Of a stretch of 64,000 nt of DNA, positions 2,328-50,331 are shown one piece after another (position 1 is the first letter of the stretch; every line of letters begins with the position of its first letter). Location: positions 62,001-126,000 of the forward strand of contig CAILLA010000057.1 in the NCBI GenBank assembly GCA_903834925.1. The letters are read 5' to 3'. The notes under the pieces were generated by a model. The model had not been told where the DNA came from. It ran no database searches and was given only the letters and a program-made list of their open reading frames with translations. This DNA is from an uncultured Schlesneria sp. GTDB lineage: Bacteria > Planctomycetota > Planctomycetia > Planctomycetales > Planctomycetaceae. The position numbers and the translations under genes are program-made.

Positions 2328-3401
2328 TCAACCAGGAAACCAAATTTCGGGAGCGACGTTGTGGAGAATCGGTTCCAGCGTCTGACCATGTTTCGGCAGA
2401 GGGAAAAAGATCGCCCCCACTGAATCGGGAAGATTATCACAACACTGAAGACTCTTTTCGACTCCCAACACAAAAAAAGCTGTCGAAAGCGCGTCAGCCA
2501 TCGCCGAATCAGGTGCGATTACGCTGACCGAAAGGAGTGTTTCGACCGGCCAACCGGTGCGAACATCGAGAATATGCCCATATCGCCGTCCCTGATATCG
2601 AAACCACTGGACTGCCGTTCCACTCGTCGCTAATGCCGCATTCTTGAGAAGAATCGTTGCGAACGGCTTGTCGGGAATTAACGGATTTTGCAGCCCCACA
2701 GGCCATCCGTCATGCCCTGCATGAGTCCCCGCCGCTCGAATGCTGCTTCTTCCGCCGTGGACCAGCCAGTTCTCAACCCCATGCGACAGCAACGATTCTC
2801 CTGCTCGCTCAACGGCGTATCCTTTTCCAATCGCACCAAGATTGAATTCGATTCCCGGCCGCCTGAACGAAATTTCGCAAGTTTCTTTGTCAAAATTCAC
2901 GTGTGAGACACCGCACATGGCAAGCGTCTGCTCAATTTCATTTGAGGTCGGAATTCGATCTTCACTTCGGCAACACTTCCAAAGTCCGATCAAGGCACCC
3001 GACGCCGGGTCAAATGCACCGCCAGTCAGTTCACTGAGTGTGCGTGCTCGTTCGAGTAAATCAAACAATCCGGCTTCGACAGTGACGGGTTCCTGGGACG
3101 CTCGCCGATTCAGTTGGCTCAGTTCGCTGTCGTCACGGTAAACGGAAAGTTGTTGTTCGAGTTCATGAACAAGCTCTAAAGCGTTCGACGCTACTTCCAA
3201 TTGTGTCTTTGGGCCATCGCCATTGACCATCACGTCAAAGTCGCATGCCATGGCTGTCGTACGGAGCATCAAAGTCGGTCCACGAGACGGACGATTGGCT
3301 CCAATAATCTCATCCGCTAATCGGCTGCCAGCGCGCTCAGTCTCCGTACGGACCGCGCGTCCGGTTAAAAAATCGCGACGGTTTGAGCCAGTATCTGACA
3401 T
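2328..3401 (-). CDS. apbE: ApbE-like FAD:protein FMN transferase
   Basis: The ATG at 3401 is chosen over one 15 bp upstream because AAAGGA lies seven bases before it and the protein then begins MSDTGSNRRDFLTG, a Tat-like start. ApbE signatures are clear: TGGAFDPASGALIGLW, NLGAIGKGYAVE, HILDVRTGWP and the Mg/FAD-binding segment DSAMADALSTAFFVLG. ApbE enzymes move FMN from FAD onto a Thr of exported flavoproteins. The usual GG-D/N motif reads HGGRSS, a small deviation. First gene of a minus-strand run with the DoxX-like and Gfo/Idh/MocA genes, suggesting an extracytoplasmic redox system, although no FMN-acceptor protein is visible in the window. Confidence 0.88.
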   Translation of the reverse strand: MSDTGSNRRDFLTGRAVRTETERAGSRLADEIIGANRPSRGPTLMLRTTAMACDFDVMVNGDGPKTQLEVASNALELVHELEQQLSVYRDDSELSQLNRRASQEPVTVEAGLFDLLERARTLSELTGGAFDPASGALIGLWKCCRSEDRIPTSNEIEQTLAMCGVSHVNFDKETCEISFRRPGIEFNLGAIGKGYAVERAGESLLSHGVENWLVHGGRSSIRAAGTHAGHDGWPVGLQNPLIPDKPFATILLKNAALATSGTAVQWFRYQGRRYGHILDVRTGWPVETLLSVSVIAPDSAMADALSTAFFVLGVEKSLQCCDNLPDSVGAIFFPLPKHGQTLEPILHNVAPEIWFPG

Positions 3402-3493
3402 AGAGAATCCTTTCAATCAACTGGATCATAGTCAATCAAGCGAATTTCGAAATGAGATGCGGATTCTTTATCAAACTTTGAAATCAGGATCTT

Positions 3494-3581
3494 GTGCCAT
3501 TGCTTCGGAGTCTTCGGAGAAGCAGTAGCTTCGTAATTCTCGAAGAGCACTGCTTTCCCGAAGACGGTCAAGCAGTGGCAC
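3494..3581. repeat. Bipartite palindromic element, CTGCTT stem type (copy 1)
   Basis: An 88 bp element opening GTGCCATTGCTTCGG and closing AGCAGTGGCAC. It consists of two hairpins in a row, separated by about 20 bp. It matches the three tandem copies at 46658-46987. It lies between the divergent ApbE-like and PhnP-like genes. No coding potential is seen in the rest of 3402-3690. Confidence 0.8.
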
Positions 3582-5781: not shown

Positions 5782-5876
5782 GTGCCACTGTCGGCGTCTT
5801 TGTGCCGCCAGTGTCTTGGAAACGGATTTCGAACGGCTAAAGAACGCGGGCGAGCGAAGACGCACGCCCGTGGCAC
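5782..5876. repeat. Bipartite palindromic element, divergent stem type
   Basis: Opens GTGCCACTGTCGGCG and closes ACGCCCGTGGCAC, so it shares the GTGCCAC / GTGGCAC ends of the other elements, with different inner stems (CACTGTCGGC / GCCGCCAGTG in the left half). It lies between two convergent genes, where it may act as a shared 3' structure. Confidence 0.6.
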
Positions 5877-8590: not shown

Positions 8591-8989
8591 CTTCGTCTCA
8601 TTTTCCGGCAGTCGCCCATCAACATCGGCGTTCTCGTCAGTGGAAGTCTATCATAAGAAACTATGGCAAATGTTGATAGACGAATTGACTGTATCGTGAG
8701 GGCAAGGCTGGCCTGATGAAACGACGAGAAGATGGGATGTTTGAGTTGTTGGGAACGACCTGTTTTTGGAACAGAAAGGGACGATGATCGGTGCCACTGG
8801 CGGCTGCTTCCAGCTGCCAGTGGCTTTTCTTTCGTTGCAGGAAAGCAGGAGAAATGTCGAGCGAATTCACACGCCAGTGGCACAGATCGCAGGGAGGACA
8901 TGTTGTCTCAATGAACGACTTCGACTAAAAGCCGATATTCGGGCTTATTCCCGAGGAACGAACCGAGCACACGGCGAAAGGACGCGCCG
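8591..8989. other. Intergenic region holding one palindromic element
   Basis: 399 bp between divergent genes. The only structure seen is the repeat at 8791-8883. Both promoters must lie here, but no clear -35/-10 pair could be assigned by eye. Short open frames here have no recognisable composition or ribosome-binding site. Confidence 0.6.
8791..8883. repeat. Bipartite palindromic element, CCACTGGC stem type
   Basis: Opens GTGCCACTGGCGGCTG and closes ACGCCAGTGGCAC. The left half folds on itself as CCACTGGC / GCCAGTGG with an inner GCTG / CAGC pair. The termini are those of the other elements, with another stem sequence. Confidence 0.65.
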
Positions 8990-10723
8990 ATGAAACACTG
9001 GTGGCTGTGGTTGGCTGGTGAACAGTCAACTATGACCGAATTGAAAAGCCAACACGCCTGCCTCTCAGGCAATGCTGGTGAAACGACGACGATTTCAATC
9101 CCCAATCAAGTAAGCCTGAATCGCATGCTCGGGCTATTTGTCCTGGTCGGGGTCCTGGCGCGAACGATCCGATACTACCTTTGTTTTCCCCTCTGGGACG
9201 ACGAAAGTTTTCTTTGCGTCAACTTGATCGATCGTAGTTTCACTCAGTTATTGCAACCGCTGGATTTCCATCAGGTCGCACCCGTCCTGTTTTTGTGGAT
9301 CGAGCGAGCGGCAGTCAAGATCTTTGGGTTTTCTGAATATTCGTTGCGTTTGATCCCGTTCATTTGTTCGATCATCAGTCTGTTCTTGTTTCGTCGAGTG
9401 GCCCAGAGACTTCTGTCGGGCCCAGCCCTGCTATTCGCCGTCGCCGTTTTTGCCGTCTCCTATCCTCAGATTCGGTATGCTGCCGAAGCAAAGCCGTATG
9501 GGACCGACATGTTTCTGTCCCTAGTCATGTTGTCGCTGGTTGTCGAATGGTATGAACGCCGTAATTCCCGATTTCTGTCTGGCTTGGCATTTCTAATGCC
9601 GTTTGCGCTCGGCGCATCGTATCCTGCTGTCTTCGCGGCCGGCGGTCTTAGCCTTGTTGTCGGATCAGTCCTATTGCAGAAAAAAGGGACTGCTGTTGAA
9701 TGGCAAGCGTGGATCGCCTGGAACGTGATGCTGGTCATAAGCTTCGTGGTCTGGTTCAGTCTCGTCGGTCGTGTCCAGAGCGGGGCCGAAGGCGAGTTCA
9801 TGGGTGAGTACTGGAAGCAAAACTTTCCTCCCGTTCGTCAGCCCTGGTTATTGCCGTATTGGCTATTAAAAACCCACGCCAGCGATTTTCTGGCGTATCC
9901 GCTTGGTGGTCCCAATTGGGCCAGCACGCTGACGCTATTCCTTTGTCTTGCCGGTTTGTGGCGACTTGTCGCTCAGAAACAATTCCTGTGGCTCGGATTC
10001 TTGTTTGGACCGGCCGGTCTGCATTTCCTGGCAGCTGCACTTCAGAAATATCCGTACGGAGGTCATGTCAAGTTTTCTCAGTATGTCGCTCCGATGATTT
10101 GCTGTCTGATCGCCGTGGGGATCGTGCAATTTCTCGATTGGCGGTCTCAGTACGGTTATTCGATGAGAAATAGTTTCGCATGGGCGTGTTCGATACTTTT
10201 CATCATTGGACTTGGAGGTGTCGCTCGCGATCTGATCAACCCCTATAAAACAAGGTCGGATGACCGTGCCCGAGCGTTTGCCAGATCTTTCTGGGTCGGA
10301 ACACATTTCGCCGAGGAAGTCGCATGCCTGAAGAGTGACTGGGGTCAGGACTTCATCCCTGAACAGCATCGGGAGTTGAGCTGGTCGGCTCACTTCCTTT
10401 GCAATCACGCGATTGAAGTCGGTCGGTCGCATCTTCGATCCGCAGACCTGAGCCGCGTTTCAGCGACTCGACCACTCAGATGCGTGCTGTATCGCGATGC
10501 CCGGTATGAACTGGATCAAGCGAAATTGGAATCCTGGCTACACCAAATGCAGCAACGGTATGAACTCGTCGCTCATGAAAGCATTCCATTTCCTCGGCTT
10601 GCCAAGGGGGATCGACGTCTCGTTACGATGGAATACATCGATTCGTATAAGTTCGTGCCACGAGACGGAGTAGCGAGCAATTTGCCTCCGATGGCCGACG
10701 GCCGCAAGACAACTTCGAGATAA
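8990..10723 (+). CDS. Membrane glycosyltransferase, GT39/ArnT-like
   Basis: 577 residues; AAGGA lies nine bases before the ATG. A short cytoplasmic leader is followed by about ten transmembrane helices. After the first helix comes CFPLWDDESFLCVN, with the acidic pair expected in the first periplasmic loop of dolichyl- or polyprenyl-phosphate-sugar-dependent transferases; DFHQVAPVLFLWIERAAV and AAEAKPYGTDMF also fit this fold. These enzymes move a sugar from a lipid-linked donor to a protein or envelope glycan. The gene ends 13 bp before asnB, so the two are probably co-transcribed. Confidence 0.85.
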   Translation: MKHWWLWLAGEQSTMTELKSQHACLSGNAGETTTISIPNQVSLNRMLGLFVLVGVLARTIRYYLCFPLWDDESFLCVNLIDRSFTQLLQPLDFHQVAPVLFLWIERAAVKIFGFSEYSLRLIPFICSIISLFLFRRVAQRLLSGPALLFAVAVFAVSYPQIRYAAEAKPYGTDMFLSLVMLSLVVEWYERRNSRFLSGLAFLMPFALGASYPAVFAAGGLSLVVGSVLLQKKGTAVEWQAWIAWNVMLVISFVVWFSLVGRVQSGAEGEFMGEYWKQNFPPVRQPWLLPYWLLKTHASDFLAYPLGGPNWASTLTLFLCLAGLWRLVAQKQFLWLGFLFGPAGLHFLAAALQKYPYGGHVKFSQYVAPMICCLIAVGIVQFLDWRSQYGYSMRNSFAWACSILFIIGLGGVARDLINPYKTRSDDRARAFARSFWVGTHFAEEVACLKSDWGQDFIPEQHRELSWSAHFLCNHAIEVGRSHLRSADLSRVSATRPLRCVLYRDARYELDQAKLESWLHQMQQRYELVAHESIPFPRLAKGDRRLVTMEYIDSYKFVPRDGVASNLPPMADGRKTTSR

Positions 10724-13650: not shown

Positions 13651-13687
13651 AGCGGTCTTTATGACTTATGGACGTAACATTATCTGC

Positions 13688-13714
13688 ACTGCTTGACCGT
13701 CCTCGGCCAAGCAG
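13688..13714. repeat. Half copy of the palindromic element
   Basis: ACTGCTTGACCGTCCTCGG followed by CCAAGCAG matches one hairpin half of the elements at 46658-46987. The other half is missing. It lies just 3' of the J-like gene. Confidence 0.6.
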
Positions 13715-13722
13715 CGAATTCG

Positions 13723-14754
13723 TTATTTTTTGTCTTTGACATGCGTAGTGTAGAACATCAAAGCAAGCGGGATTCCAATCACGACTGAGGAAATATAGGG
13801 GAAATATTGCACGAAACGTGGCAGGAAGTTGCGATAAACCATATCCCATAAGACAAAGTTGTCCAGAAGCGCCGGGATCGCGAATGCCCAGCACATGAAG
13901 ATCATGCCCAGTTGTTTTCGCTGGGCCTTTTCACCTTCACTCAACTCTGCGACTGCCACCTTTGGTTCAGAAGCACTATTCTTCTTGCCTGCAACTTTGC
14001 CTGTCCCTTTTGCCGGGGCGGCAACTTCCTTCCGCATTCCTTCGGCATAATTCGTGGCAATCGCCTGATTAATCGATTTACCCGACGCAATCACCGGCCG
14101 AATCGGCTTATGGAACCTGAGTCGAACTTCGTCTTCAAGTTCCGAATCAGGCTCGTCGGCACAGGCAACAACGACGGCATTTTCTTCGATAAACAGTGGG
14201 AGACAATTGTGGCGACGCACGACGTTTTTCGGCAACAAGTCCATTGCGTCGTTTTCGGGAACGAGATCGGCAAGATCGACATACGATCGACCAAGTTCAT
14301 TGGCGTACGCTCGTGCGGCAACCTCATGGTCCACGTACTTGAGCTGCACAATCGCATCACGAATCGAAAGACCAGTTCGATCCGCGTGAGCTTTCGCCTC
14401 TTTCGCCTGGTCTGACGTGATCGCCTTCTCATCCTGAAGGTACGACGTCATGGGCCGACGACCCGATTCGTCCCGGTCGTCGATCACGCGACCGAGGCTT
14501 CGGTCGTAATCCTGCTTTAACTCTTCGTCCGTCAGACACAACATCGCTTTGGCAAGCTCGTTGAGCAGCGTCTGTGACTCGTTGGAATACGTACCTGACG
14601 CAAACTTGCGTACGTGCGTATTCAACTTTTTATAGTACTTCCGAATCTTATCGACATCGTCTTCGAACTGAACGAGACGAAGCAGTTGATAATGATTCGG
14701 CGGACGCTGATCTTCCGGGATACCCAGCCACTCTTTGTAAACGTCGATTGCCAC
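13723..14754 (-). CDS. J-like / GspE-N domain membrane protein (Hsp70 partner candidate)
   Basis: 343 residues in three parts. Residues about 18-88 look like a J domain (NHYQLLRLVQFEDDVDKI ... LTDEELKQDYDRSLG), but the HPD tripeptide that activates Hsp70 is absent (HVRKF stands there). Residues about 110-235 resemble the N-terminal domain of GspE/PilB ATPases (ITSDQAKEAKAHADRTGLSI, LPKNVVRRHNCLPLF), without any ATPase domain. After a Lys/Ala-rich linker come two transmembrane helices (FMCWAFAIPALLDNFVLW; ISSVVIGIPLALMFYTT). It lies 24 bp downstream of an Hsp70 gene, so the two are probably made together. Function unknown; an Hsp70 membrane adaptor is my inference. Confidence 0.75.
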   Translation of the reverse strand: MAIDVYKEWLGIPEDQRPPNHYQLLRLVQFEDDVDKIRKYYKKLNTHVRKFASGTYSNESQTLLNELAKAMLCLTDEELKQDYDRSLGRVIDDRDESGRRPMTSYLQDEKAITSDQAKEAKAHADRTGLSIRDAIVQLKYVDHEVAARAYANELGRSYVDLADLVPENDAMDLLPKNVVRRHNCLPLFIEENAVVVACADEPDSELEDEVRLRFHKPIRPVIASGKSINQAIATNYAEGMRKEVAAPAKGTGKVAGKKNSASEPKVAVAELSEGEKAQRKQLGMIFMCWAFAIPALLDNFVLWDMVYRNFLPRFVQYFPYISSVVIGIPLALMFYTTHVKDKK

Positions 14755-18349: not shown

Positions 18350-18447
18350 GTGCCACGGTTTTGGAGTCTTCGACAAGGCCGTGTCCTCGTGGTTCGATAA
18401 CATATTCGAAGAGCACGGCCTTACCGAGGACGGTAAAACCGTGGCAC
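18350..18447. repeat. Bipartite palindromic element, ACGGTTTT stem type
   Basis: Opens GTGCCACGGTTTTGGAG and closes ACGGTAAAACCGTGGCAC. The framework is that of the 46658 copies, but the paired stem CTGCTTGAC / GTCAAGCAG is replaced by CGGTTTTAC / GTAAAACCG. It is the main structure in the 310 bp gap 18274-18583, with the hairpin at 18487. Confidence 0.75.
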
Positions 18448-31430: not shown

Positions 31431-31460
31431 ACAAACTGCCTGATGGATGTGAGTTTTTCG

Positions 31461-31482
31461 TAGTGTGGGCTTCAGCCCGCAC
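31461..31482. repeat. GTGGGCTTCAGCCCGCAC hairpin repeat (copy 1)
   Basis: Short palindrome. Further copies: 32623-32643, 45925-45946, 45960-45981 and 50309-50331. Confidence 0.7.
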
Positions 31483-31935
31483 AGGACTTTTTGGCACACA
31501 AGCGAAAGCCTTACCATTACCCGCGTTGTGGCTTCGCCAAGGCGAACCGGGAAGCGTAAGCTCTCGGACTCTTCGCTCTCTTCAGTTCTGCTGTAATTCC
31601 ACCCCCCCAACAAAATTTGGTGTCAAAGTTCGCGCGACTTCACCAGAGTTCGATCAAGTTTTCCTTTCTCTTTTTCGTGCTTTCGTGAACAGCTTTCATC
31701 TTGAATTCGCAAAACGCGAAATCACCAGAAGGATTACGAAAATACGAAAGAATGAAAGCACGAAAAATCTCTCAAAAAAATGTTGGTCAAGTTGGCCAAG
31801 TTCCGTTTTTTCAGGTGTTTTTTCAGGTTTGAAGTTGGCCAACTTTACCCGTTCTTGCGTTGTCTTCGAGAGGGCGAGGTGCCACCCGAGCCGTCTAGTG
31901 ATCTCCGTACGTTAAATCGAATTCGATTCAGGATT

Positions 31936-45603: not shown

Positions 45604-45687
45604 GCGTCGCCTGAGGGAACGACGTGCTGACGGCCGATTGTGTTGCAGGGGATGATAGACTTTAGGATCAAATAGCTGTGACGATGG

Positions 45688-45774
45688 GTGCCACGGTTTT
45701 ACCGTCCTCGGTAAAGCCGTGCTTTTCGGACACGTTATAGGACCATGAGGACACGGCCTTGTCGAAGACTCCAA
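45688..45774. repeat. Palindromic element, ACGGTTTT stem type, interrupted at its right end
   Basis: Reverse-orientation relative of 18350-18447: GTGCCACGGTTTTACCG to GTCGAAGACTCCAA. The expected end AAAACCGTGGCAC is missing here and reappears as CCAAGACCGTGGCAC at 46101-46115. See the finding on 45770-46115. Confidence 0.75.
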
Positions 45775-45806
45775 TGAGGCTTTGCCTCAGACCAAAGTAG
45801 CCCGCT

Positions 45807-45910
45807 CGCTCCGCGAGAGGATAGCCGAATTGAAGCAAACCTCGACTGGCACTTGAAAGCTCTGATGAATCGCTCGGTTCATGGCAATTCGGCTTACTTC
45901 TCGCGGAGCG
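45807..45910. repeat. 26 bp imperfect inverted repeat
   Basis: CGCTCCGCGAGAGG..AGCCGAATTG (45807-45832) against its complement at 45885-45910, 23 of 26 bases pairing, 52 bp loop. Part of the 542 bp non-coding gap 45604-46145, which is made almost wholly of repeats. Confidence 0.75.
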
Positions 45911-45924
45911 TTTGTCAGTTTTTG

Positions 45925-45981
45925 TAGTGTGGGCTTTAGCCCGCACAAGACGTTGTGAAGCACGGGCTGAAGCCCATGCTA
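45925..45981. repeat. GTGGGCTTTAGCCCGCAC hairpin repeats, two head-to-head copies
   Basis: One copy at 45925-45946 and one inverted at 45960-45981 (GCACGGGCTGAAGCCCATGC). Same family as 31461-31482. Confidence 0.7.
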
Positions 45982-46060
45982 CGGGTTGTGGCTCACCATT
46001 TTTTTTTACTTTCAAAAACTGACAACCTCGGAACGAGAGGGCTCCTTTTGCGGAAATCCT

Positions 46061-46087
46061 GAAGCTTGATTCATTGAGTCAAGTTTC
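46061..46087. terminator. Hairpin 3' of GAF gene
   Basis: GAAGCTTGATTCATTG then AGTCAAGTTTC, a near copy of 13624-13650, 59 bp past the GAF gene stop. Weak as a terminator since no T run follows. Confidence 0.35.
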
Positions 46088-46145
46088 GGACCGAAGAAGT
46101 CCAAGACCGTGGCACCCGGTGTTTCGACCACAAGGGAAATCTCAT

Positions 46146-46633: not shown

Positions 46634-46990
46634 CAAACTCCAACTTAAGGTTTCCGAGTGCCACTGCTTCGGAGTCCTCGGAGAAGCAGTGTCTTCTTCT
46701 GCTGGCCAAAGAGCACTGCTTGACTGAAGACGGTCAAGCAGTGGCACACTCTTCAAACTCCAACTTAAGGTTTCGGAGTGCCACTGCTTCGGAGTCGTCG
46801 GAGAAGCAATGTCTTCTTCTGCTGGCCAAAGAGCACTGCTTGACTGAAGACGGTCAAGCAGTGGCACACTCTTCAAACTCCAACTTAAGGTTTCGGAGTG
46901 CCACTGCTTCGGAGTCCTCGGAGAAGCAGTGTCTTCTTCTGCCGACCAAAGAGCACTGCTTGACCGAAGACGGTCAAGCAGTGGCACATT
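46634..46990. repeat. Three tandem 120 bp units, each with a palindromic element
   Basis: Units start at 46634, 46754 and 46874 with CAAACTCCAACTTAAGGTTT and are nearly identical. Each contains one bipartite element (46658-46747, 46778-46867, 46898-46987). Left hairpin CACTGCTTC / GAAGCAGTG, right hairpin CACTGCTTGAC / GTCAAGCAGTG. The first 17 bases of each unit, on the minus strand, carry the GGAG ribosome-binding site of the GAF gene, so that leader has been triplicated. Confidence 0.9.
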
Positions 46991-47052: not shown

Positions 47053-48597
47053 TCATTGAAAGAGATGACCTGGCATGGGTCTGAGTTCCCTGATCACAGG
47101 CCGGAAATCGATGTGGGCCAGTATCTGAGTTTCGACATCGATTCCGGGTGCTACTTCGATCAGTTCGATTCCCTCGGCGACCAGGCGAAAGACTGCACGC
47201 TCCGTTACAAAAAGAACATCATGGTGCCGATCACGAGCGATCTTTCCGCTGAACGAAACTTGTTCCACTTCGTTAACGAATTTCCGATTCGTCCCTTCGC
47301 GAATGATCCGCAGGCACCCATTTTCCACGGCAATTTCCAAACCTCCGGAAGTCAGCGTCCCACAGAACACCAGCCGTTTTGCACTTTGAGAAATATTAAT
47401 GAAGCCCCCGACTCCGGCGAGGCGCGAACCGAAACGAGAAACGTTCACATTGCCTCGCCGATCGATTTGAGCCGCCCCGAGAGCTGCGAAGTCTAACCCG
47501 CCGCCGTCATAAAAATCGAACTGGGCAGGCTGGTCGACGATTGCTTGTGGATGAACGGCGGCACCGAAACTGAGTCCTCCTGCGGGCATTCCGCCGATCG
47601 GGCCGCTTTCAACGGTTAATGTGATTCGATCCAGTATCCCGCGTTCGGCCGCGATTCGAGCGATCCCCTCGGGCATTCCGATCCCCAGGTTTGCAATCGC
47701 ACCAGGATGCAGTTCGTCGCAGGCTCGTGCAGCAATGATTCGGCGTTCATCGGGGGGGGGGTTTGAGAGCGACGCAAAAAATTGTGCGGCCGCATCAGGC
47801 GATGCTGATTGAAAGTATGTGTCGTTCAACGGTTCGGCGAACGTCTGTGGATGATTGCTCAAGTCCGAAACAACAACTCGATCGACCAGAATGCCAGGGA
47901 CACGAACCTGAACCGGCGAGAGCGGAAATTCGATTAACTGCTTGACTTGCGCCAGCATAATCCCGCCAGAATTTCGAACGGCTTGAGCGATCTGAAGGAC
48001 GTCACCAATGACCGCTTCTTCTTCCATCGACAGATTGCCATAGGGGTCTGCCGATGTCGCACGAATCAGTCCCACGTTTATGGGGAAGGATTTGTAAAAC
48101 AGCCAGTCACGACCAGAGAGCGTAATTCGTTCGACAAGTGGTTCGGTCGTCTTCGAGTTCAAGCGTCCGCCGCCAAACACAGGGTCAACGAACGTTCCTA
48201 ACCCGACGTGCGTGATGCAGCCGGGACGGCCAGCGGCAATGTCACGGTATAGCTGGCAGATAACACCCTGAGGGAAATTATAGGCTTCGATTTGATTGGA
48301 AATCGCCAGTTGGCCGATTCGGGGAACCAATCCCCAATGGCCACCGATGACTCTTCGCACGAGACCTGTGTGACCGAGGTGGTTGAGACCACGAGATTGA
48401 CCATCACCCTGACCGGCTCCATAAACCAGAGTCAATCCGGTCGGGTTGCCGCTTGTTAAAAACCGACGCTCCAAGGCGGCTGTCAGAGCTTCCGGGTGTG
48501 CCGCGCCGATGAATCCACCACAGGCCATTGTGGCCCCATCGGGAATCTGGGCGACGGCTTCGTCGGCGGAACACAAAAGGCTGTCAATCCGGCTCAT
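47053..48597 (-). CDS. Acyl-CoA:carboxylate CoA-transferase, family I
   Basis: 514 residues from the ATG at 48597, which overlaps the stop of the SDR gene (TAATG) and has GGAG upstream. Both alpha- and beta-type halves are fused: [17 protein letters not shown] at the start and the catalytic EXGXXG motif ESGPIG (in [15 protein letters not shown]) in the second half. It moves CoA between acyl-CoA and acids such as acetate, propionate or acetoacetate. The coupled SDR suggests a 3-hydroxy/3-oxoacyl pathway. Confidence 0.93.
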
Positions 48598-49349
48598 TAA
48601 CTCCACCAGCCCCCGTTTACGTGGATGGTCTGACCTGTCACATAGCTGGCCAGGTTGCTACACAAGAATAGAATCACATTGGCAATTTCGTGAGGTTCAC
48701 CGAATCGCCGCAAGGGAATGTTTATGAGCATTTGCTGGCGGACATCTTCAGGAATTGTTTGCCCCATTTCCGTTAACACGACCCCCGGCGCAACCGCATT
48801 GACGGTAATATTTCGTGGGGCCAGTTCCTTACTCAAAACCTTGGTTAACGCGATGACTCCCGCTTTTGCTGACGAGTAATTCGCCTGACCGTAGAATCCT
48901 ACGACCCCGGAAATCGAGGCCATGCTGACAATCCGACCACCGGCAGTCAGTCGTGATTGAGCGGCTTTGCAAACGTTGTAGACCCCCGTCAGATTGGTGT
49001 CGATCACATCCGACCATTCATCATCGGTCATTTTCTTGACAGATCGATCGCGAATAATCGCCGCATTGTTAATGACGACATCCAGACGCCCAAAACGCTG
49101 AATGATACTATCCAGCATCAGTTCCAACTCGGCTCGATCGCGAACATCCGCGGGCATGGCAATCGCGCGATCACCAAGCGCCGTTGCGGCAGATTTCGCC
49201 AGGTTTTGATTGATCCCCTCATTGTCCTCAAAATAGTTCAGAACGACTGTCGCGCCCGCTGCATGTAACGCAGTTGCGGTTGCCAGACCCAGTCCTCGGC
49301 CGGCACCGGTCACTACGGCCACTTTGCCGGATAAATCGATGAAATTCAT
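48597..49349 (-). CDS. SDR oxidoreductase, FabG-like (3-oxoacyl reductase)
   Basis: 250 residues with [22 protein letters not shown], catalytic Ser (SMASISG) and YSSAKAG, then [12 protein letters not shown] and the C-terminal [11 protein letters not shown]. It reduces 3-oxoacyl groups with NADPH in fatty acid or hydroxyalkanoate metabolism. Translation is coupled to the CoA-transferase by a TAATG overlap. Confidence 0.93.
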
Positions 49350-50068: not shown

Positions 50069-50110
50069 GGACAGCAACCTTGAATATTCGCTTAACCCGG
50101 ATGATGCGTT

Positions 50111-50167
50111 AGCCCGACGCGCAAGCGAGGGTCTTCATTGTGTTCACCCTCGCTTGCGCGTCGGGCT
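50111..50167. repeat. Perfect 21 bp inverted repeat, AGCCCGACGCGCAAG family
   Basis: AGCCCGACGCGCAAGCGAGG(G) at 50111-50131 and its exact complement at 50147-50167 with a 15 base loop. Relative at 21686-21736. It lies upstream of cysC. Confidence 0.85.
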
Positions 50168-50308
50168 ATCGATACTTCGTGTACGATCACGATTGGCAAA
50201 GTGTAGGGATCGAAGGAAACTGTTGGAAGCTTCGACTGTTCTCACAATAAAAGTGCGAATGCTGTCGGTTTTGTTGAGTCGGATTTCCCCTGCTCAAGGT
50301 TTCGTGCC

Positions 50309-50331
50309 GCACGGGCTGAAAGCCCATGCTA
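50309..50331. repeat. GTGGGCTTCAGCCCGCAC hairpin repeat (copy 5, inverted)
   Basis: GCACGGGCTGAAAGCCCATG, with one extra A against the other copies. It is just 3' of the DapA-type gene. Confidence 0.65.

Follow-up and report, generated by a model that had tools for sequence, protein, structure and literature searches.

The bipartite palindromes in the analysed stretch of DNA (64,000 nucleotides, hereafter the window) are very probably non-autonomous, REPIN-like mobile repeats of a Schlesneria-type planctomycete, served by a RAYT gene located on another contig (C171) of the same genome. Evidence came from the layout of the elements, the covariation of their stems, a GTGC foot, the position of the RAYT gene between REPINs, the paralogue-specific stems of related RAYTs and the presence of three copies at a focal site that holds one copy in relatives.

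REPIN-Like Elements in the Window

A covariance model (R1) was built on an alignment (A1) of 62 elements, 52 from the present genome (G000; three from the window) and ten from relatives. These rows were picked from 77 reference elements, the 15 omitted being array neighbours, orthologues of the focal copies and elements with indels in the arms. R1 recovered eight full elements and one half copy at the nine places listed in an earlier note on this DNA, all of which are thus real, and gave no further match in the 64-kb window up to E = 1. The elements at 3494, 18350 and 46898 are rows of A1 and match by construction. The features of the window were as follows:

46658..46747, minus strand (A to B): REPIN copy 1 of the tandem triplet; R1 90.7 bits, E 3.5e-24
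46778..46867, minus strand: REPIN copy 2 of the tandem triplet; R1 86.1 bits
46898..46987, minus strand: REPIN copy 3 of the tandem triplet; R1 97.1 bits; row of A1
46954..46987, minus strand: REP A of copy 3; GTGC foot (46984–46987) and hairpin with loop GTCTTC
46898..46931, plus strand: REP B of copy 3; GTGC foot (46898–46901) and hairpin
46748..46777, no strand: 30-nt segment separating copies 1 and 2; similar to the right outer arm that type I elements have elsewhere
46868..46897, no strand: 30-nt segment separating copies 2 and 3; like 46748..46777 (type I right-outer-arm-like)
18350..18447, minus strand: REPIN of the CGGTTTT subfamily; R1 90.2 bits; row of A1
3494..3581, minus strand: CTGCTT-subfamily REPIN with a mutation at one outer end (GTGCCAT); R1 76.5 bits; row of A1
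45688..45788, plus strand: REPIN of the CGGTTTT subfamily with decayed B end, within a larger mosaic repeat; R1 65.7 bits
5782..5876, minus strand: diverged REPIN with other stems; R1 47.9 bits, E 8.6e-12
8791..8883, plus strand: weak REPIN with a poor second hairpin; R1 29 bits, E 2.5e-6
13687..13716, plus strand: half copy, a REP A hairpin without GTGC foot; R1 19.8 bits (26.3 bits on the minus strand over 13687–13741)

The weakest full copy was that at 8791, followed by that at 5782. The copies at 46658, 46778 and 46898, which form a 120-nt tandem triplet, were 95–98% alike. GTGCCAC...GTGGCAC ends and two consecutive hairpins were previously ascribed to all full copies, which calls for small corrections: the element at 3494 starts with GTGCCAT, that at 45688 is without the GTGGCAC end, and the second hairpin of that at 8791 is poor.

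Other repeats were also seen in the window. Positions 45632–46115, which include the REPIN at 45688, form a mosaic intergenic repeat, pieces of which match many places in three relatives (G001, G002 and G005). Related palindromes occur at 31455–31510, 45919–45974 and 50269–50320. GTAG stands before the first two (GTAGTGTGGGCTTCAGCCCGCAC and a near copy), which resemble a second REP family, of the canonical type. At 50107–50171, a nearly perfect palindrome of 26 nt has a loop of 13 nt.

Anatomy, Foot and Folding

The elements have a REPIN-like layout, in which two palindromes of approximately 34 nt each (REP A and REP B) face each other around a spacer, with a total length of 90–101 nt. Each REP comprises the GTGC foot and, after it, a palindrome of approximately 30 nt. 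REP A consists, in this order, of GTGC, a stem such as CACTGCTTGACC, the loop GTCTTC and the partner strand. The upper stem of REP B differs from that of REP A, and nearly all full reference elements combine one A with one B facing it. In 1,130,488 bases of the present genome, a hairpin started at 131 of 270 GTGCCAC sites versus 2 of 112 for the reversed word, used as control, which places the palindrome directly downstream of the tetranucleotide, as in canonical REPs. The same bases contained 50 facing pairs at 90–101 nt and two at 38 nt, with none elsewhere from 20 to 200 nt; two inverted REPs at a fixed short distance are characteristic of REPINs.

When hairpin bodies were located without use of the foot, in the window and 57 loci of the present genome, GTGC preceded 112 of 121 bodies and GTGG preceded three. 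The GTGC foot was found at 59 of 64 A bodies and, for three B types, at 20 of 20, 25 of 27 and 8 of 10 bodies. For the base beyond the foot, the share of the commonest base was 0.41 in A and 0.55 in one B type, and fell only to 0.81 and 0.90 in the other two B types. With this foot, the elements depart from the GT(A/G)G tetranucleotide by which REPs have been defined (PMC3686654).

As single-stranded DNA, the whole element at 46898–46987 folds, as expected of a REPIN, at −28.5 kcal/mol (z −5.96). Its predicted minimum fold is one long hairpin in which A is paired with B, the two separate hairpins being an alternative only. Pairing varied over the 62 rows of A1: one B type has its upper stem paired, whereas another does not (pairs 82–93 to 84–91 unpaired in 34 to 40 of 62). 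Pair 11–28 was unpaired in 21 of 62, largely through an A.C mismatch that recurs across several subfamilies and is also present in the two REPs next to the RAYT gene of the present genome, where it occupies stem pair 7.

Copy Number and Distribution

Sixty elements were collected in the 1,130,488 bases, which scales to approximately 480 in 9.02 Mb, an estimate from stretches partly chosen on contigs with known matches. A short pattern occurred 858 times in the present genome versus 79 times for its reversal. R1 matches numbered at least 150 in each of G000, G001, G002 and G005 and ranged from 0 to 131 across the remaining 11 genomes of the genus; 14 of these 15 genomes had a match. Across a family-wide sample, R1 matches were found in 14 of 81 genomes and 11 of 58 genera. 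The strongest carrier outside the genus was G095 (47 of 51 scored), whose elements are mostly B-like on both sides. A plasmid search was without match.

The earlier description of the elements as intergenic throughout was roughly right: 49 of 53 elements of the present genome lay outside predicted genes and four within, on a crude gene call, and one of these four reflects a probable start-codon error at 46658. High copy number and extragenic location, both typical of REPs, were thus found together.

Several contigs of the present assembly, for example C176, C178, C179, C275 and C293, have these elements at an end, and longer arrays may thus be hidden by breaks in the assembly. A 37.9-kb contig filed as viral (L217, IMG/VR) contains two elements (3325–3411 and 10026–10114); host DNA, a prophage and a misfiled contig are all possible.

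A RAYT Gene Located Between REPINs

The earlier note had likened the elements to REP/BIME elements, which are moved by RAYT transposases, and had seen no such gene in the window. Both points stood: the window is without a RAYT gene, one flanked by these REPINs was found elsewhere in the genome, on C171, and relatives likewise have RAYT genes beside full-length copies. Since the foot is GTGC, the elements are, however, not canonical REPs.

Of the ten matches from a Pfam Y1 search of the present genome, none could be linked convincingly to the elements. The G015 genome, a single contig from another genus of the family, has a RAYT-type gene flanked by two inverted A-type GTGC palindromes (span 817 bp), and the CTCTTC found at these palindromes also follows REP A in the present genome. 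The homologue of the G015 protein in the present genome is an open reading frame at C171:4216–4743 (49% identity, E 5.9e-42). It contains the HUH (EHVH) and Y1 motifs of RAYTs, with WQ and YIHQNP, passes the NCBIfam model for REP-associated tyrosine transposases (NF047646, REP_Tyr_transpos; 90.7 bits, cut-off 80) and matches TnpA-REP of PDB entry 4er8 (E 2.6e-7). Its score against Pfam PF01797 was 18.8 bits, below the cut-off of 23, which explains why the Pfam search missed it; a Y1 Pfam search alone can thus miss the RAYT of a REP-rich genome.

REPINs were present on both sides of the C171 gene (1146–1244 and 2116–2213 of locus L301), each followed by a further REP A, so that the gene stands between inverted REPs of the same type, as in RAYT/REPtron loci. 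The homologue in G001 has two REPINs before it and three after. The C171 gene was the only close RAYT match in the present assembly; it lies next to one subfamily, and the other subfamilies are without a RAYT of their own. No close RAYT was found in G002 and G005 (best E 1.0e-9 and 3.7e-12, respectively), yet both belong to the genomes with at least 150 R1 matches.

Association of Palindromes With RAYT Homologues

Fifteen RAYT homologues were compared with other Y1 loci: 14 from the genus, plus L266; the set excluded two short fragments (L323 and L325) as well as weaker matches. A GTGC palindrome was present within 400 bp of 10 of the 15 homologues, versus 5 of 82 other Y1 loci (Fisher p 5e-7), and on both sides of 8 of the 15, versus none of the 82 (Fisher p 4e-8), p values that are only a guide because genes of one genus are related. 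The other five homologues had no GTGC palindrome within 400 bp. L266 was found via its palindromes, which favours the association, and had been moved from the control to the RAYT set; without it, the counts were 9 of 14 and 7 of 14. The control omitted loci whose length did not fit their coordinates. IS200-like Y1 genes with a YIxxQExHH motif, considered as a candidate transposase, were dropped on the counts for the non-RAYT Y1 loci.

Two RAYT-like Y1 genes of the present genome, L041 (G000:C257) and L042 (G000:C262), were also rejected; they lie between inverted repeats, such as ACAAGAAAAGGGGACAGGTCC, that are unrelated. These genes resemble the TIRtrons/TIRYT genes described in PMC3733652, and such TIRtron-type inverted repeats (AAAAGGGGACAGGTCC-like) have no relation to the REPIN elements. 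One intergenic gap before an IS200-like gene (L128, L129 and L130) contained a full element in G001, a rearranged palindrome with a double foot in G002 and an unrelated palindrome in G005. One stem of the G002 palindrome showed a matched C-G to G-C change relative to G001.

Stems differed between RAYT paralogues. Beside the RAYT genes of the present genome and G001 the stem is CTGCATGACC; those of other paralogues are CGGTTTTGG (G013:C783), CTGCTTCGG (G013:C924), CTGGTTGGCC (G012:C28), CTGGCGAGG (G010:C15), CTGCTTCTCG (G006:C128) and CTGCTGGACC (G015). Four sister RAYTs carry GTGG palindromes instead of GTGC, and in a small, midpoint-rooted RAYT tree one group had a support of 87/95.

The exact B REP beside the RAYT of the present genome occurred in 78 copies in that genome, 23 in G001, 11 in G005 and two in G002, and in none of the other 11 genomes. 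Together with the presence of a close RAYT in G000 and G001, these numbers fit, without proving, amplification where the RAYT is present, with relics or other enzymes elsewhere; only four genomes carry this exact REP. The REP beside the G013:C783 RAYT has the same sequence as the most frequent B REP of the CGGTTTT subfamily of the present genome (six copies in 1.07 Mb), which suggests that this subfamily may have lost its enzyme there. A genome-wide comparison of stems in 400 kb yielded 0, 2, 4 and 2 hairpins in G006, G010, G011 and G012, respectively. As these are too few, the matching of stems rests on the RAYT-side palindromes and on the exact copies in G000 and G001.

Covariation of Stems

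The earlier proposal that stems change in sequence while pairing is kept was borne out statistically on A1, also inside subfamilies. Paired cells amounted to 86.2%, versus a shuffle mean of 76.8; 15 of 25 pairs were changed on both sides somewhere (8.7 in shuffles), and 105 cells were changed on both sides (27.6 in shuffles). The covariation score was 0.214, compared with 0.068 in shuffled alignments and at most 0.065 in slid-partner controls. A weaker measure, the number of further pair types, was 30 versus 26.3 and was reached by 28 of 500 shuffles. Much of this signal lies between subfamilies, where one change is common to many copies; as many double changes are common to whole subfamilies, they count few events. 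Inside the five subfamilies with at least four members (51 of 62 rows), 17 double changes were paired and four unpaired, while one-sided changes comprised 15 G-U pairs and 45 breaks, next to 1065 unchanged cells.

Matched stem change is expected of REPs and fits the known co-diversification of RAYTs and REPs. RAYTs have been described as flanked by inverted REPs whose palindromes are kept via complementary changes, with similar RAYT and REP trees (PMC2817692), and REPINs as units whose spacers undergo compensatory change (PMC3116915).

Another possible source of double changes, without selection, is template switching or quasipalindrome correction at DNA hairpins, in which one arm is rewritten from the other, so that pairing is kept without selection or matching to a transposase. 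Template switching has been reported to create and maintain hairpins (PMC8794818). In line with it, 9 of the 17 paired double changes inside subfamilies were without a G-U intermediate, five of the nine being C-G to G-C, and B hairpins vary in a block of three bases (TCC or GGA) through which the inner stem pairs. However, the persistence of the 45 one-sided breaks indicates that correction would be far from complete, and neither the different stems at different RAYT paralogues nor the shared A.C mismatch at stem pair 7 beside the RAYT of the present genome is explained by this process. As the account of kept pairing, template switching is a tentative possibility; it is the best rival for the origin of the double changes and can act together with mobilisation by a RAYT.

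History and Surroundings of the Focal Site

The tandem triplet lies between a CoA-transferase gene (47053–48606, minus strand) and a gene with a sub-threshold GAF match that starts near 46634 (minus strand). Over much of this region, identity to relatives is approximately 82%. At the orthologous site, G001, G002 and G005 each contain one element versus three in the present genome. The length of the TTC run in the spacer differs among the focal-site copies of these four genomes. Since the three relatives have a single copy, the 120-nt triplet would most simply have arisen through local expansion, in tandem, of a single old copy. A second site has an element in G001 that is absent from G002, G005 and the present genome; the additional DNA there exceeds the element in length, clean junctions were not seen, and the difference may also reflect loss.

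Occupation of the focal site in four species would also be expected of RNA elements, such as terminators, mRNA stabilisers or riboregulators, kept for a host function. The same applies to the enrichment between convergent genes, as 22 of the 49 intergenic elements were in convergent gaps, which make up 22% of intergenic bases, versus 21 in tandem gaps (53%) and six in divergent gaps (25%). Such a function is nevertheless improbable as an explanation of these elements, which are without an Rfam match, vary within the genus from hundreds of copies to none, occur in both orientations and flank a transposase gene with their palindromes.

Outer arms of three kinds are conserved beyond the REPIN and track the core subfamily, and the 30-nt stretches at the focal site resemble one of these kinds. 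The shared arms suggest that the mobile unit may be larger than the REPIN. This tracking would also suit MITEs of a DDE transposase, with the outer arms (e.g., TAGTGCGTTGTCAA) as terminal repeats and the REPIN core as passenger. That origin is very unlikely, as none of 79 elements had an exact target duplication of 4–9 nt, arms recombine between types (L055_7106) and REPs flank RAYT genes. Moreover, pairing of the outer arms was only slightly above controls (8.8 versus 7.2, p 0.007), and the arms were rejected as the main structure. Exact 3-nt repeats at element ends were in excess (6 of 79 versus 1.4 expected). Simple drift from one ancestral sequence, with which the near-identity of stems within a subfamily would agree, is excluded for practical purposes by the number of cells changed on both sides (105 versus 27.6) and by the pairing kept in 17 of 21 double changes inside subfamilies.

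Proposed Mobilisation and Comparison With Known Systems

We infer that the REPINs are moved by the C171 RAYT, an HUH/Y1 transposase of the single-strand-acting kind located between copies of the same REPINs. By analogy with IS200/IS605 and TnpA-REP, this enzyme would recognise the folded single strand by its foot, stem and irregularity and would cut and join beside it, so that REPINs would spread without target duplications. RAYT paralogues in the genus carry different stems; the stem sequence would drift along with its transposase, with pairing kept, and the enzymes would be what drives the stem differences.

The elements share many features with gammaproteobacterial REPIN/RAYT (TnpA-REP) systems, for example those described for Pseudomonas fluorescens SBW25, Stenotrophomonas and E. 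coli (PMC3116915, PMC2817692, PMC3686654). In both, palindromes with a 5' tetranucleotide face each other, the pairing spacer is variable, copy number is high in intergenic DNA and clusters occur; a RAYT between copies, pairing-preserving stem changes and RAYT-REP co-evolution are further common features. In contrast to the gammaproteobacterial systems, the foot is GTGC rather than GT(A/G)G, outer arms are conserved and, in the present genome, two different REPs (A and B) are joined, for which the closest counterpart is the Y-Z pairs of E. coli.

As described for E. coli BIME-2 and its REPtron (yafM), two REP types form inverted pairs, BIMEs lie on both sides of the RAYT and a stem irregularity is conserved (PMC2817692, PMC8266576); there, however, a GTAG foot is combined with an AA-GC bulge, whereas here a GTGC foot is combined with a single A.C mismatch. 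Complementary stem changes among subfamilies, dimers and clusters repeated with flanking DNA are also reported for the GTAG- and CGTC-tagged REP superfamilies, and several GTAG REP families for the planctomycete R. baltica (PMC3733652). The GTGC tag is not among these superfamilies, and the main text of that paper does not contain GTGC as a word. Y1 proteins have been reported to fall into sub-classes (PMC6006769).

Significance of the GTGC Foot

What is new here is a GTGC foot in place of the REP-defining GT(A/G)G, with four sister RAYTs on GTGG palindromes. Neither this foot nor these elements in Schlesneria were found in the open-licence literature, supplements aside, and five papers checked for the word GTGC lacked it. 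The chances appear evenly balanced that, within this planctomycete family, the guide foot of one RAYT family has been switched at its fourth position between GTGG and GTGC, while the paralogues of that RAYT family keep private stems, some with a fixed mismatch. In the TnpA-REP studied in PMC8266576, the GTAG foot and the bulge are reported to have a role, the foot helps to choose the cut site, and the fourth foot position is among those tied to the choice of cleavage site. If the switch is real, the pairing rule published there would predict that a GTGC foot shifts cleavage from CT or CC to GC or GA; a cut at GC or GA is thus a predicted extension of that rule.

REP recognition is so far understood from a small number of gammaproteobacterial GTAG systems. 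If the proposed switch is correct, the genus would represent a natural series of matched sets of foot, stem and transposase. A planctomycete set with another foot, several paralogues and matched stems could help to show which foot and stem bases are read by each enzyme, and whether the cut site is set by the foot as a guide.
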